From contig NZ_JAHXNL010000021.1 in the NCBI RefSeq assembly GCF_023148685.1, forward strand, positions 1-48,712: a stretch of DNA of 48,712 nucleotides, read 5' to 3'. This document shows positions 6,533-12,210 of this stretch, in pieces; position 1 is the first letter of the stretch, and each line of letters starts with the position of its first letter. The stretch comes from Georgenia sp. EYE_87. Its GTDB lineage: Bacteria; Actinomycetota; Actinomycetes; Actinomycetales; Actinomycetaceae. A model generated the notes under the pieces. It made no database searches. It saw only the letters and a list, made by a program, of their open reading frames with translations, and was not told the DNA's origin. A program made the position numbers and the translations under genes.

Positions 6533-7501
6533 TCAGCCGCGCAGCCGGCGCAGCTCCTCGATCGCCTGCGGCAGCACATCGTTGAGGTCGCCCACGATCC
6601 CGAGGTCCGCCATCTCGAAGATGGGTGCCTCCGGGTCCGAGTTGACCGCGACGATCGTCTGGGCCGCCTGCATGCCTGCGGTGTGGTGGATCGCGCCGGA
6701 CACCCCGATGCCGATGTACAGCCGCGGCGAGATCGTCACGCCGGTCTGCCCCACCTGGGCGGCGTGCTCGATCCAGCCCTCGTCCGTGGCCACGCGGGTG
6801 GCGCCCACCGCTGCCCCGATCTCGTCGGCGAGCTCGGTGACGAGGGAGAAGTCCCCCTCGACGCCGCGCCCACCCACGACGACGGTGCGCGCCTCGCCCA
6901 GCGGGGCGCGCCCCCCGCGGGGGTGCTCGGTGCGGGAGAGCACGCGGACGGCACGCGCCGCCGCCGAGAAGTCCACCGGGACCGCGACGGTCTCGGGCTC
7001 CGCCCCGTCGACCGCGGTGGCCTCGACGACGGTGGGCTTGACGGCGATGACCGGCACGCCGCGGGTGACCTCGCACGCGGTCTCCCACGTGCCCTGGAGC
7101 ACCACCTTCGACGCCACCAGCGCGCCGTCCTCCGCGGTGATCCCGGTGGCGTCCACCACCGCGCCGGAGTCGAGCGCGACGGCGAGCCGGGCCGCGACCT
7201 CCTTGCCCGCGAAGCTGGAGACGAGCAGCACGGCGGCCGGCCGGGCCTGCGCGACGGCCGCGAGCACGGCCTCCGCCGCGACGGCCGAGACGGTGGGCGA
7301 GAGCCCGTCGAGCTCCGGGACGTAGACGACGCCCACGCCGTGGCGGCCGAGGGCTGCGGTGTCCGGCGCCTCGAGAGCGACGGCGGAGACACCGCCCGTG
7401 GTCAGCGACCGGGCGAGGGTGAGGACCTCCGCTGACGGGGTGGTCAGGTGGCCGTCGACGTGGTCGACGACGACGAGCAGGGGACGGTCGAGCTCGGGCA
7501 T
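6533..7501 (-). CDS. etfA: Electron transfer flavoprotein alpha subunit
   Basis: 322 residues, FixB/EtfA family. With EtfB it accepts electrons from acyl-CoA and other dehydrogenases and passes them to the quinone pool; it binds FAD. The C-terminal FAD domain is clear: GIGVSGAIHHTAGM followed by IVAVNSDPEAPIFEMADLGI. The ATG at 7501 has AGGAGA 4-9 bases before it; an in-frame TTG at 7522 has no such support and overlaps etfB. It lies 13 bases after the etfB stop, so the two are co-transcribed. No ETF-quinone oxidoreductase or acyl-CoA dehydrogenase gene is nearby. Confidence 0.96.
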   Translation of the reverse strand: MPELDRPLLVVVDHVDGHLTTPSAEVLTLARSLTTGGVSAVALEAPDTAALGRHGVGVVYVPELDGLSPTVSAVAAEAVLAAVAQARPAAVLLVSSFAGKEVAARLAVALDSGAVVDATGITAEDGALVASKVVLQGTWETACEVTRGVPVIAVKPTVVEATAVDGAEPETVAVPVDFSAAARAVRVLSRTEHPRGGRAPLGEARTVVVGGRGVEGDFSLVTELADEIGAAVGATRVATDEGWIEHAAQVGQTGVTISPRLYIGIGVSGAIHHTAGMQAAQTIVAVNSDPEAPIFEMADLGIVGDLNDVLPQAIEELRRLRG

Positions 7502-8472: not shown

Positions 8473-10734
8473 GTGAGTACCGCGTCCCTCCTCCTCGGCC
8501 AGAGCACTGCGGAGCCGTACACCGACACCCCCACGCAGCGGGTGCCCGGGCACGCGGCCAACCCCCGCCGGCTGGGGGCGCACCTCGTCGGGGACGGCAT
8601 CGACGTCGCGGTCCACGCCTCGCGGGCCACCCGCGTCGACCTCTGCCTCGTCGACGTCGCGCCCGACGGCTCCCTCAGCGAGCGCCGCTTCCGCCTGCGC
8701 GGCCCGGTCTCAGGGGTGTGGCACGGCCATCTGCCGGGGGTTCGGGCCGGCCAGCGCTACGGGTTCCGCGTCCACGGCCGGTGGGACCCGGCGTCGGGCC
8801 TGCTCCACAACCCCGCGAAGCTCCTGCTCGACCCCTACGCCCGCGCGCTGGCGGGGAGCGTGGAGCTGGTCCCCGCGATCCACGCGCACGTCGTCGGCGA
8901 GGACCTCGCGCCCGCCGACGGGCCGTGGCTGCCAGACCCGTCCGACTCCGCCCCGTTCGTCGCGCACGCCGTGGTGGTCGACGACACGTTCGACGGGGCC
9001 GTGCCGCCGCCGCGCGTGCCGTGGTCGGAGACGGTCCTGTACGAGGCGCACGTGCGCGGACTGACGATGCGCCTGCCGGAGGTGCCCCGGGAGCTGCGGG
9101 GAACCTACGCGGGCATCGCCCATCCCGCCACCATCGCGCACCTCAAGCGGCTGGGCGTGACCACGGTGGAGCTGCTGCCCATCCACGCGAACTTCCCCGA
9201 GCCGTTCCTCACGGCCAAGGGGCTGACCAACTACTGGGGCTACAACACCCTCGGCTTCTTCGCGCCCGAGCCCACCTACGCGACGCGCGCGGCCCAGGAG
9301 GCCGGGCCGGCGGCGATCCTGGCCGAGGTCAAGGGCATGGTGTCCCTGCTCCACGCCGCCGGGCTGGAGGTCGTGCTCGACGTCGTCTACAACCACACCT
9401 GCGAGGGGGGCGAGGGCGGCCCGTCGCTGAGCCTGCGCGGCCTGGACAACACGGGGTACTACCTCCACGACGGCACGACCCCGGCCCGCCTGGTGGACGT
9501 GACCGGGTGCGGGAACTCCCTGGACTTCCGCCGGACCCGCGTGGTCCAGCAGGCGCTGGACTCGCTGCGCTACTGGGCGGGCGAGGTCGGCGTCGACGGG
9601 TTCCGGTTCGACCTGGCCGTCACCCTCGGGCGCAACGGCGCGGAGTTCACGCCGCACCACCCGTTCCTCGTGGCCATGGCCACCGACCCCGTCCTGTCGG
9701 CGACCAAGCTGATCAGCGAGCCCTGGGACCTCGGCCCCGGCGGGTGGCGCACCGGCCAGTTCCCGGCCCCGATGGCGGACTGGAACGACCGCTTCCGCAA
9801 CACGGTGCGCTCGTTCTGGCTCGCGGACCCGGCGGCCGCCGCCAAGGGCCACACCGGCCACGACCTGCGCGACCTCGCCACCCGGCTCTCCGGCTCCGCC
9901 GACCTCTTCGGCTCCGGGGAGGTCCCGGGCGGCCGCGGCCCGTTCGCGTCGGTGAACTTCATCACCGCCCACGACGGCTTCACCCTCGCCGACCTGGTCT
10001 CCTACGAGCACAAGCACAACGAGGCCAACCGCGAGGGCAACCGCGACGGCACCGACGACAACCGCTCCTGGAACCACGGCGTGGAGGGTCCGCTGCCCCC
10101 GGACTCCCCCGCGGCGGAGATCCTGCCGCTGCGGCGTCGTTCCATGCGCAACCTGCTGGGCACGCTCCTCGTCTCCGCGGGCACGCCGATGCTCACCGCC
10201 GGCGACGAGATCGGCCGGAGCCAGGGGGGCAACAACAACCCGTACTGCCAGGACAACGAGATCTCCTGGATCGGGTGGAACCGCGAGGGCTGGCACGGCG
10301 ACCTCCTGCACACCGTGTCGTCCCTGATCAAGCTGCGCAGCGAGCACCCCGTGCTGCGGCCGGGCCGGTTCGCCTCGGGCCGCCCGGCGACGGACGACGA
10401 CGTCCTGCCAGACCTGTCGTGGTTCAACGCCGCGGGCGAGGCCATGACGGCGCAGGCCTGGCACGACCCGCACGGCCGGGTCCTGCAGATGCTCCGCTCG
10501 GGGCGTCCGGCGGGCGACCTCGACGCCCTCGTGGTGCTCAACGGCTCCCTGGACCAGCAGGCCGTCACCCTCCCCCCGGGGCGCGGGGCGGACTACGAGC
10601 TGGTCTGGGACTCGGCCTGGGAGCGCCCTGCCCTTCCCGTGCAGGCGGAGACGGAGCCGCTCGGCATGGTCGCCTCGCCCGGCGAGGCCGTCGAGCTGGA
10701 GTCGCTCAGCATGCGGATCTATCTCGCCGGCTGA
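8473..10734 (+). CDS. glgX: Glycogen debranching enzyme GlgX (GH13)
   Basis: 753 residues. It hydrolyses alpha-1,6 branches of phosphorylase-limit glycogen. The N-terminal CBM48 domain (about 20-150) is followed by a GH13 barrel: nucleophile D380 (DGFRFD), acid/base E416 (ISEPWD) and third carboxylate D501 (TAHDG). The typical GlgX segments NYWGYN and GGNNNPYCQDNE are present. The GTG at 8473 has no Shine-Dalgarno; TTTACT sits 6 bases upstream as a poor -10. It lies just outside the GlgE-pathway block and probably supplies linear maltodextrins to GlgP. The stop codon lies in a 16-base tandem repeat. Confidence 0.96.
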   Translation: MSTASLLLGQSTAEPYTDTPTQRVPGHAANPRRLGAHLVGDGIDVAVHASRATRVDLCLVDVAPDGSLSERRFRLRGPVSGVWHGHLPGVRAGQRYGFRVHGRWDPASGLLHNPAKLLLDPYARALAGSVELVPAIHAHVVGEDLAPADGPWLPDPSDSAPFVAHAVVVDDTFDGAVPPPRVPWSETVLYEAHVRGLTMRLPEVPRELRGTYAGIAHPATIAHLKRLGVTTVELLPIHANFPEPFLTAKGLTNYWGYNTLGFFAPEPTYATRAAQEAGPAAILAEVKGMVSLLHAAGLEVVLDVVYNHTCEGGEGGPSLSLRGLDNTGYYLHDGTTPARLVDVTGCGNSLDFRRTRVVQQALDSLRYWAGEVGVDGFRFDLAVTLGRNGAEFTPHHPFLVAMATDPVLSATKLISEPWDLGPGGWRTGQFPAPMADWNDRFRNTVRSFWLADPAAAAKGHTGHDLRDLATRLSGSADLFGSGEVPGGRGPFASVNFITAHDGFTLADLVSYEHKHNEANREGNRDGTDDNRSWNHGVEGPLPPDSPAAEILPLRRRSMRNLLGTLLVSAGTPMLTAGDEIGRSQGGNNNPYCQDNEISWIGWNREGWHGDLLHTVSSLIKLRSEHPVLRPGRFASGRPATDDDVLPDLSWFNAAGEAMTAQAWHDPHGRVLQMLRSGRPAGDLDALVVLNGSLDQQAVTLPPGRGADYELVWDSAWERPALPVQAETEPLGMVASPGEAVELESLSMRIYLAG

Positions 10735-10779
10735 CCACCGCGCCGGCTGACCACCGCGCCGGCTGACCACCGCGCCGGC
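10726..10779. repeat. 16-base tandem repeat spanning the glgX stop codon
   Basis: GCCGGCTGACCACCGC is repeated three times without change (10726, 10742, 10758), then GCCGGC. The TGA of glgX is in the first copy, so the array repeats the last codon and stop. A similar array ends the beta-glucosidase gene. Confidence 0.95.
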
Positions 10780-10889: not shown

Positions 10890-10895
10890 TAGGCT
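10890..10895 (+). promoter_or_regulatory. -10 box of the trpS leader transcript
   Basis: TAGGCT, a good TAnnnT box, ends 6 bases before a GTG at 10902 that opens a short Trp-rich frame, as expected for a leaderless leader-peptide message. A 16-base near-palindrome (10898-10913) overlaps the presumed start site. Confidence 0.55.
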
Positions 10896-10901
10896 GTGCG
10901 G

Positions 10902-10937
10902 GTGCCCACCCGCGTGCGTTCCTGGTGGCCGTCCTGA
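10902..10937 (+). CDS. Candidate Trp leader peptide upstream of trpS
   Basis: An 11-codon frame, GTG to TGA, reads VPTRVRSWWPS. Two adjacent TGG codons (10923-10928) are improbable by chance in so short a frame. A TAGGCT box directly upstream and mutually exclusive hairpins directly downstream give it the layout of an attenuator leader peptide sensing charged tRNA-Trp. Ribosome-mediated attenuation is known for trp genes, and for one trpS, in Streptomyces. The frame is far too short for homology evidence, so the call rests on layout. Confidence 0.65.
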   Translation: MPTRVRSWWPS

Positions 10938-11001
10938 CGGACGGCCCCTCCACGCACCCTCCCACCGGCCGTCCCGCGAGGCGGCCTGGCACGCCTCGTG
11001 G
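10927..11001 (+). promoter_or_regulatory. Predicted attenuator hairpins before trpS
   Basis: Segment A, GGCCGTCC (10927-10934), overlaps the second Trp codon. Segment B, GGACGGCC (10939-10946), can pair perfectly with A or with C, GGCCGTCC (10967-10974). A further 10-base-pair stem (10974-10983 with 10992-11001, loop of 8) follows just before the trpS ribosome binding site GAGGA (11019-11023). A ribosome stalled on the TGG pair would cover A, free B to pair with C and change what happens at the last stem. There is no T-run, so either termination or translational control is possible. Confidence 0.6.
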
Positions 11002-11027
11002 CGCCGCCTTCGAATCCTGAGGACCCC

Positions 11028-12140
11028 ATGACCGAGCAGACCGACGTCGCCACCGACCTGGCGGACTCCACCAACGACGCCTCCCTCGAGCGCACCCGCC
11101 GCCGCAGCGACGAGATCGAGGCGCAGATCGAGAAGGACCCGAGCGGTTTCCGCGTCCTCACCGGCGACCGGCCGACCGGCAACCTGCACCTGGGCCACTA
11201 CTTCGGCAGCCTCGTGAACCGCGTGCGCCTGCAGCGGGCGGGCGTCGAGACCTGGGTCCTCGTGGCGGACTACCAGGTCATCACCGACCGCGACGGCGTC
11301 GGCCCGGTCCGCGAGCGTGTGCTGTCCCTGGTCGCGGACTACCTGGCCGTGGGTATCGACCCGGACGCCAGCACGATCTTCACCCACTCCGCCGTGCCCG
11401 CCCTGAACCAGCTCATGCTGCCGTTCCTCTCGGTCGTGACCGACGCCGAGCTGCGCCGCAACCCGACGGTGAAGTCCGAGCTGGAGGCCACCGGCGACCG
11501 GCCGATGTCCGGCCTCATGCTCACCTACCCGGTCCACCAGTCCGCCGACATCCTCTTCTGCAAGGCCAACCTCGTCCCCGTGGGCAAGGACCAGCTGCCC
11601 CACCTGGAGCAGGCGCGCGTGATCGCCCGCCGCTTCGACGAGCGCTACGGCCGTGCGGGCGACGGCTCTCAGCCGGTCTTCCCCCGCCCCGAGGCCCTGC
11701 TCTCCGACGCCGCGAGCGTGCTCGGCACGGACGGGCAGAAGATGAGCAAGTCCCGCGGCAACACGATCGAGCTCGGGATGGACGCGGACGCCACCGCCAA
11801 GGCGCTCAAGCGGGCCGTCACGGACGCCGACCGGCACATCACCTACGACCCCGTGAACCGGCCCGAGGTCTCCAACCTCGTGCTCCTCACGGCGCTCGCC
11901 AGCGAGCGGGACCCGCACGAGGTCGCCGAGGAGATCGGCGACGGCGGAGCCGCCACGCTCAAGAAGGCCGCCACCGAGGCCGTCAACGAGATGCTCGCGC
12001 CCGTCCGCGCCCGCCGGACCGAGCTGGCCGCCGACCCCGGCTACCTGCTCCAGGTGCTCCGCACAGGCAACGACCGCGCCAACGCGGTCGCCGACGCCAC
12101 CCTCGGCGAGGTCCGCGAGGCCATGCAGATGGTGTACTGA
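11028..12140 (+). CDS. trpS: Tryptophanyl-tRNA synthetase
   Basis: 370 residues, class Ic synthetase that charges tRNA-Trp. The HIGH-type motif is HLGH (54-57) within TGDRPTGNLHLGHYFG, and KMSKS is at 238-242. An N-terminal extension of about 40 charged residues precedes the usual start of the catalytic core. The ATG at 11028 has GAGGA 5-9 bases upstream. Upstream lie the candidate Trp leader peptide and alternative hairpins, suggesting that shortage of charged tRNA-Trp raises expression. Downstream is a 42-base palindrome, and glgP converges on the gene. Confidence 0.97.
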   Translation: MTEQTDVATDLADSTNDASLERTRRRSDEIEAQIEKDPSGFRVLTGDRPTGNLHLGHYFGSLVNRVRLQRAGVETWVLVADYQVITDRDGVGPVRERVLSLVADYLAVGIDPDASTIFTHSAVPALNQLMLPFLSVVTDAELRRNPTVKSELEATGDRPMSGLMLTYPVHQSADILFCKANLVPVGKDQLPHLEQARVIARRFDERYGRAGDGSQPVFPRPEALLSDAASVLGTDGQKMSKSRGNTIELGMDADATAKALKRAVTDADRHITYDPVNRPEVSNLVLLTALASERDPHEVAEEIGDGGAATLKKAATEAVNEMLAPVRARRTELAADPGYLLQVLRTGNDRANAVADATLGEVREAMQMVY

Positions 12141-12168: not shown

Positions 12169-12210
12169 CGACGGGCCCGGTCCCTCCGCGCGGAGGGACC
12201 GGGCCCGTCG
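12169..12210. terminator. Bidirectional terminator between trpS and glgP
   Basis: A perfect inverted repeat with two 21-base arms (12169-12189 and 12190-12210), centre CCGCGCGG. It lies 29 bases after the trpS stop and 38 bases from the glgP stop, so it can serve both. No T-run, as is common in high-GC genomes. Confidence 0.85.

Follow-up and report, generated by a model that had tools for sequence, protein, structure and literature searches.

The gene for tryptophanyl-tRNA synthetase (trpS) in Georgenia is preceded by a short leader which is very probably a ribosome-mediated attenuator controlled by tryptophan codons. The window, by which is meant the whole stretch of DNA analysed, is 48,712 nucleotides long. 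The evidence consists of the anatomy of the leader, its conservation, its mutually exclusive pairings and a change of fold in silico when the sequence is masked. As in a trp-type attenuator, there is a short leader with tandem cognate codons, and there are mutually exclusive helices with a last hairpin that shares strand 3.

Organisation of the leader region

The features of the region are listed in Table 1. The leaderless-type promoter, the 11-codon frame and the adjacent Trp codons lie where the initial annotation had placed them, and the A:B hairpin overlapping the Trp codons and the perfect 8-bp B:C alternative are likewise present as it had described. The 10-bp stem that it took for the final structure exists, but is only the inner half of a longer hairpin. 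The outer half of this C:E hairpin uses strand C, so that the whole hairpin excludes B:C. The outer stem P0 had been overlooked.

Table 1 Features of the trpS leader region, numbered from the first nucleotide of the window.
Feature	Position	Strand	Remarks
-10 box TAGGCT, leaderless-type promoter (putative)	10890-10895	+	TANNNT 6 nt before GTG 10902
Leader frame GTG..TGA, VPTRVRSWWPS, 11 codons, probably leaderless	10902-10937	+	Homologous frames in relatives
Tandem Trp codons TGGTGG (codons 8-9)	10923-10928	+	Kept in 4/9 genus genomes and 59/63 model-matched leaders
Outer stem P0, GUGCGU with ACGCAC, 6 bp (predicted)	10914-10919/10952-10957	+	Encloses A:B
Strand A, GGCCGTCC	10927-10934	+	Overlaps second Trp codon; A:B 8 bp
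Strand B, GGACGGCC	10939-10946	+	Perfect 8 bp with A or C
Strand C, GGCCGTCC	10967-10974	+	Alternative partners B, D or E
Strand D, GGCGGCC	10980-10986	+	Equals terminator arm of relatives
Short hairpin C:D, 7 bp	10967-10973/10980-10986	+	Homologous to U-run hairpins of relatives
Long hairpin C:E	10967-11008	+	Ends 10 nt before SD, 19 nt before AUG
10-bp inner stem of C:E	10974-10983/10992-11001	+	Outer half of hairpin uses C
Shine-Dalgarno (SD) GAGGA of trpS	11019-11023	+	
trpS, ATG 11028	11028-12140	+	TIGR00233 227.7 bits (cut-off 176.75)

Strands A and C have the same 8-base sequence. The predicted energies are -16.9 kcal/mol for A:B (-24.9 kcal/mol with P0 added), -15.3 for B:C, -13.4 for C:D and -29.6 kcal/mol for C:E. 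On the predicted pairing, the helices A:B, B:C and C:E are mutually exclusive.

Between positions 6533 and 17058, trpS stands alone, surrounded by an ETF pair and by carbohydrate genes for a CBM48 amylase, a phosphorylase and GlgE. Three exact tandem copies of GGCTGACCACCGCGCC (10729-10776) overlap the end of the CBM48/amylase gene upstream, and a terminator-like perfect palindrome of 40 bases (12170-12209) lies between the convergent trpS and phosphorylase genes. The far end of the window contains an L31-Actinobacteria ribosomal protein leader (RF03158, 46924-46969, minus strand, 38.7 bits).

Control of trpS by a T-box or another riboswitch can be given practically no weight. T-boxes do control some actinobacterial synthetase genes, for example ileS (PMC1262725), but the distant L31 leader is the sole Rfam match over cut-off in the window, and no Rfam family scores over cut-off in 12 loci with homologous leaders.

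A predicted ribosome-dependent switch

The region was folded without forced pairs after masking the bases that a ribosome might cover. With the window masked to 10934 or 10937 the fold contains B:C; with it masked to 10940 or 10950, it contains the C:E hairpin. Since the mask to 10940 abolishes the switch, the switch hangs on a few bases of the ribosome footprint. A ribosome covers some 15 nt ahead of its P site. When the first Trp codon occupies the A site, the ribosome would therefore cover the leader to about 10935; when the stop codon is there, it would cover B. By this model the geometry would fit the needs of an attenuator, though turning on few bases.

We hypothesise the following mechanism. 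Transcription would start at or beside the leader GTG, and the ribosome would begin the leader without a Shine-Dalgarno sequence. When charged tRNA-Trp is plentiful, the ribosome would be at the stop codon or gone, with B either covered or paired with A (and P0 formed); C would be free to form the C:E hairpin, or the short C:D, and trpS expression would be low. When Trp-tRNA is short, through starvation or because TrpRS is overloaded or inhibited, the ribosome would halt on UGG-UGG and cover only A. B would then take C, the hairpin would lose its outer half, and trpS would be expressed until charging is restored. In this scheme we infer the leaderless start, the stalling, the response to Trp-tRNA and the output step.

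Distribution of the leader

The initial annotation had proposed that related genera be compared for conserved TGGTGG frames and covarying stems. Upstream regions were scanned at 110 loci, 30 from the family and 80 from a wider set, with some genomes entering twice (for example L004 = L031), for frames with a TANNNT box 5-8 nt before the leader start. Trp-Trp (WW) leaders were found at 25 loci, counting the window and the duplicate L031, and single-W frames at 6. At all 25 WW loci the box is 6-7 nt upstream of the leader start. Dropping the demand for a -10 box gave 28 loci, namely 24 of the 25 and four others (L018, L019, L068, L109), which were dropped because their frames are unlike the rest.

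The carriers of WW leaders include Georgenia, Ornithinimicrobium cavernae, Propioniciclava flava, Micropruina, Actinomadura, Bailinhaonella, Streptosporangium, Nonomuraea, Saccharothrix and Streptomyces. The proposed comparison was thus borne out across families: Propionibacteriaceae, Thermomonosporaceae, Streptosporangiaceae and others have a Trp-Trp leader with the same triple of pairing strands before trpS. The commonest core of the leader peptide is S or G, W-W, P or R, S.

Seventeen leaders, those of the window and of 16 relatives, went into a covariance model, R1 (the row of L088 is shifted at C). The model was searched with strict filters, which make the counts lower bounds, and the E-values are rough. 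At E 0.01 it matched at least 49 of 394 genomes of the class and at least 21 of 297 genomes of the order. The best 30 of the 52 class-level matches lie before trpS (27), trpD (2; L116 and L138, whose trpD genes score 322.5 and 342.4 bits against a cut-off of 199.05) and an anthranilate-synthase-like gene (1; L125). By coordinates, the other 22 comprise 12 just before trpS, one on the opposite strand of a true hit and nine elsewhere. At order level, nine of the best 11 of 21 matches precede trpS, the window among them, and two precede anthranilate-synthase-like genes (L149, L150); one of the remaining 10 precedes trpS (L156), and nine have no TrpS in the fetched stretch. These nine of 52 class-level and nine of 21 order-level matches away from trpS are all weak; they count against the attenuator reading.

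The genes behind L125, L149 and L150 fall in the chorismate-enzyme group (anthranilate, aminodeoxychorismate or isochorismate synthases); their identification as trpE was rejected, as no model scored over cut-off. Leaderless-type Trp leaders before trpD or anthranilate-synthase-like genes include MIKRVDGWWPAS and MRSTHTFWWPA. As for trpE in the Georgenia genome itself, a single WW frame some 1.4 kb away, with no -10 box, was dropped as unlike.

Among the 63 matched leaders TGGTGG occurs in 59; L008, L009 and L112 have TGGCGG, and L010 has neither. The predicted RNA element is present across Actinomycetes.

Conservation of the pairing

Pairing was scored in 62 of the 63 matched leaders, L010 being left out because it has no TGGYGG. 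The B:C pairing, which is outside the R1 model, has a mean score of 20.6. With C permuted among leaders the score was 18.0 +/- 0.38, none of 2000 permutations scoring as high, and with the letters of C shuffled it was 12.35 +/- 0.36; the B:C of the window is undercounted here, its inner stem having been taken for C:D. P0, also outside the model, scored 16.19 against 12.42 +/- 0.32 when its partners were permuted (0 of 300). The permutation counts are not exact probabilities, since related leaders do not count as independent.

By eye, A/B/C read CCGTCC/GGACGG/GGCCGTCC in Georgenia, CGCTCC/GGAGCG(G)/GGCCGTTC in Streptosporangiaceae and GCCGCC/GGCGGC/GGCCGCC in family f27. Judged on these sequences, strands A, B and C change together across groups, and the covarying stems looked for are present in that pairing follows sequence change among relatives. 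Inspection by eye also shows the inner stem made by differing letters, for instance GAGGCG/CGCCTC in the window as against GAGGUG/CACCUC in L004. Long hairpins of -28.5 to -34.7 kcal/mol occur at the same place in the Georgenia-type leaders L001-L004 and L008-L011 and end shortly before the SD. Six of them folded alone gave z of -1.9 to -3.0, which is moderate.

These results bear on whether this is an ordinary 5' untranslated region in which a WW frame and hairpins have arisen by chance. GC-rich DNA folds readily, and single stems of such size are not rare. Yet a WW mini-frame of 6-20 codons with TANNNT 6-7 nt upstream occurs only once on both strands of the window (eight WW mini-frames, the trpS leader included, when the box is not demanded), strong model matches concentrate before Trp genes, and the partner permutations of B:C and P0 also speak against chance, which conservation already contradicts. 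We consider this explanation highly improbable.

The output step

A U-run after the last hairpin, as in a classical intrinsic terminator, is absent in Georgenia. The lack of a T-run after the last stem, remarked in the initial annotation, is confirmed by a count of three T in the 9 nt after the long hairpin. In the 9 nt after the C:D hairpin there are two T in the window and on average 1.3 in seven Georgenia-type leaders. The corresponding means are 4.9 in 18 auxiliary window-type leaders, 5.4 in f27 (11 of its 12 leaders scored), 3.7 in six leaders that precede the sole TrpS of other families, and 0.8 in five of family f51; in this scoring the trpS start of L010 was mis-chosen. Most of the remote relatives carry a U-run after C:D. 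The distance from hairpin end to trpS start has a median of 66 nt in the auxiliary window-type leaders and 68 nt in f27 (range 61-73, 11 scored).

Direct masking of the SD is not supported, as its access hardly differs between states: the predicted unpaired fraction is 0.44-0.47 in the off state and 0.50 in the on state. In the window the E strand could also pair with the SD (CCUC with GAGG), but no such pairing was seen by eye in L002, L003 or L008, and the idea was dropped. Control of translation initiation and termination that is U-run-independent or Rho-assisted are about equally likely; translation has a slight edge at most, given only by the position of the hairpin and the lost U-run.

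In a more specific version, Rho would load on the C-rich, G-poor spacer between B and C (10947-10966) once the ribosome leaves, and stalling would protect or refold it. C and G make up 70% and 5% of the spacer in the window, and 76% and 10% in the nearest relative (G119), as against 22-67% C (median 44%) in 56 leaders outside Georgenia; the Georgenia leader has no U-run, and Rho has been proposed for Cys leaders of Actinobacteria (PMC1262725). However, other Georgenia spacers are less C-rich (L004 48%, L008 54%, L009 52%), and high C is common in GC-rich DNA. A Rho-dependent output would seem rather unlikely.

In family f51, four leaders just before trpS were folded (L141, L142, L144, L145). 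They have no U-run, and their SD region lies in a local predicted hairpin. These folds hint at a translational output in that family.

The tryptophanyl-tRNA synthetase

The initial annotation regarded this trpS as the only one in the window, and it is also the only copy found in the whole Georgenia genome (G000). All 149 family genomes with a TrpS match have one TrpS. The closest named protein among those listed is from Georgenia sp. SYP-B2076 (89% identity). The nearest solved chains are 1yi8 (E 3e-66) and 2a4m (E 6.5e-66), TrpRS II enzymes that presumably come from Deinococcus and share the VLTGDRPTG motif. TrpRS II is described as an extra copy working with NO synthase (PMC9437257). No NO synthase was found in G000, and a link of this TrpRS II-type enzyme to nitric oxide was therefore rejected.

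The number of TrpS was counted in 49 named genomes picked from the 80 wider loci: 17 have two and 32 have one, with the weak, partial second hits of G799 and G800 and the split gene of G817 left uncounted. The leader is present in 13 of the 17 two-TrpS genomes versus 7 of the 32 with one. In 20 genomes with a leader-bearing and a second TrpS, none of 19 second copies has a leader within 400 bases upstream (L211, with only 41 upstream bases, was left out). Window-type trpS genes appear broken, with an in-frame stop or split matches, in G311 (C1:1999126-1999716, behind leader L123) and in G281 (C94, in pieces).

The two kinds of copy also differ at the site of Gln-9. In 57 leader-bearing TrpS (L112 having a Trp-Arg leader) this residue is Arg in 40, Lys in 14, Thr in 2 and Gln in 1; in the 20 second copies it is Gln in 19 and Lys in 1, twelve of these and L140 having been read by eye. 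Arg also occupies the site in every one of the 86 window-type rows, counting duplicates, that are not on the leader list, and on this alignment it is a trait of the whole window-type clade, leader or not. The window TrpS has Arg at the Gln-9 site and Gln at the His43 site, where 2g36 has Arg and His. The sites were placed via the 2g36 alignment and the B. stearothermophilus sequence. Kitabatake is said to have reported in 2002 a role of Lys9 in indolmycin resistance. H43N is a resistance mutation (PMC4899734). That the window TrpRS is resistant to indolmycin is only a guess.

Loss and history within the genus

Closer to home the conservation proposed in the initial annotation is only partial. 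A WW leader is found in 4 of 9 genus genomes (G000, G119, G126, G022) and a Trp-Arg leader in two (G133, G107), and the upstream scan found none in three (G094, G052, G076). Upstream of trpS in 70 family genomes (30 + 40), a WW leader was seen in 4 and a single W in 5; frames in L199 and L200 were dropped as unlike. The element, as judged from these genomes, is eroding within the genus.

In G052 and G076, and at all five loci of the sister genus g9, trpS itself starts 6-7 nt downstream of a TANNNT box. The gene looks leaderless at L013-L017 and L006-L007, which lack the attenuator. It is as if the sensor had been cut out and trpS put onto a leaderless promoter in sister lineages.

This erosion raises the question of whether the leader of the window is itself a decaying relic, which came with an auxiliary inducible trpS and now keeps its shape with little regulation. 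The leader-less and Trp-Arg genomes agree with this, as do the TANNNT box before trpS in two of the three leader-less genomes and in g9, and the vanished U-run. Against it, TGGTGG, A:B and B:C (8 bp, with one G-U in G119) are intact in the window and in its nearest relative G119, and the Georgenia-type leaders form the long hairpin at the same place by differing letters. We consider a relic improbable.

A quick tree of 133 TrpS, a hand-picked subset, gave long-branch warnings and 38 open forks. Leaders occur on branches that diverge early in the window-type clade and, apart from these, on the enzyme clade of f27 and f35, and they are patchy where TrpS is alone. The simplest reading, which we infer, is that the attenuator is old and belonged to an inducible auxiliary gene, that it was kept as the enzyme became the sole one, and that it was then often lost.

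More tentatively, this may be a sole, antibiotic-resistant, auxiliary-type TrpRS with an inducible leader, in which the U-run was lost, a longer hairpin came to reach the ribosome binding site and the output moved from transcription to translation, while sister species dropped the sensor by way of a leaderless trpS; we hold this fuller account to be possible but doubtful.

Relation to known attenuators and significance

Vecchione and Sello reportedly described in 2010 a ribosome-mediated attenuator of the gene for an auxiliary, antibiotic-resistant TrpRS (trpRS1) in Streptomyces, with a Trp leader and competing hairpins before trpS. The Georgenia leader resembles this system in having a homologous RNA element before trpS, R1 finding both groups. 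In family f27 the model finds leaders such as MTTRTCTQLWWAA; f27 is taken for Streptomyces because this peptide and its kin almost match TrpL2 of S. lividans (PMC8079986). The f27 leaders belong to an auxiliary TrpRS and have a U-rich tail and a hairpin 61-73 nt before the start, whereas in Georgenia the TrpRS is the sole one, there is no U-run, and a longer hairpin stands next to the ribosome binding site.

Trp attenuation of trpS in Streptomyces, to which the initial annotation had referred, agrees with the literature (PMC1262725, PMC8079986). RNA-seq of S. lividans TK24 gave a leaderless TrpL2 leader of trpS with hairpins, reportedly without a U-rich stretch (PMC8079986). TrpL2 has 13 codons with one Trp (MMTRTCTQLWRAA), whereas the Georgenia leader has 11 with two; the TrpL2 peptide is nearly that of some R1 matches before trpS. 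Candidate attenuators have been described for S. avermitilis trpS2 and for the trp operons of Corynebacterium and Streptomyces (PMC1262725). Like the present leader, the trp-operon candidates have tandem UGG codons and three complementary strands of the pattern gGCC-rGCy-GGCC. The candidates differ from it in serving Trp biosynthesis genes or a second trpS, with poly-U terminators in the trp operons. Comparative studies of Trp attenuators (Lopatovskaya 2010, Korolev 2015) may already have predicted some of the leaders. In the literature searched, which was mostly non-subscription, no report was found on Georgenia or on a sole TrpRS of such type under such control.

On the basis of these observations, the initial annotation of an attenuator is supported as largely right in its reading of the sequence. 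The Georgenia leader joins the known ribosome-mediated trpS attenuators of Streptomyces, its setting on a sole TrpRS and its output stage being unusual. In other genomes, TrpRS of this type is the auxiliary copy that bears the leader. No Rfam family scores over cut-off in the element, and a model of it would therefore help annotation. By this finding, attenuation of trpS would not be confined to auxiliary genes but would reach an essential synthetase present as the sole copy, and the same RNA element would stand before trpD and before two TrpRS groups that are well separated. The series of intact, Trp-Arg, single-Trp and deleted leaders would allow a comparison of how a starvation switch is lost or rewired. 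If the fuller account is true, the sister species would be natural constitutive versions of a sole synthetase gene.
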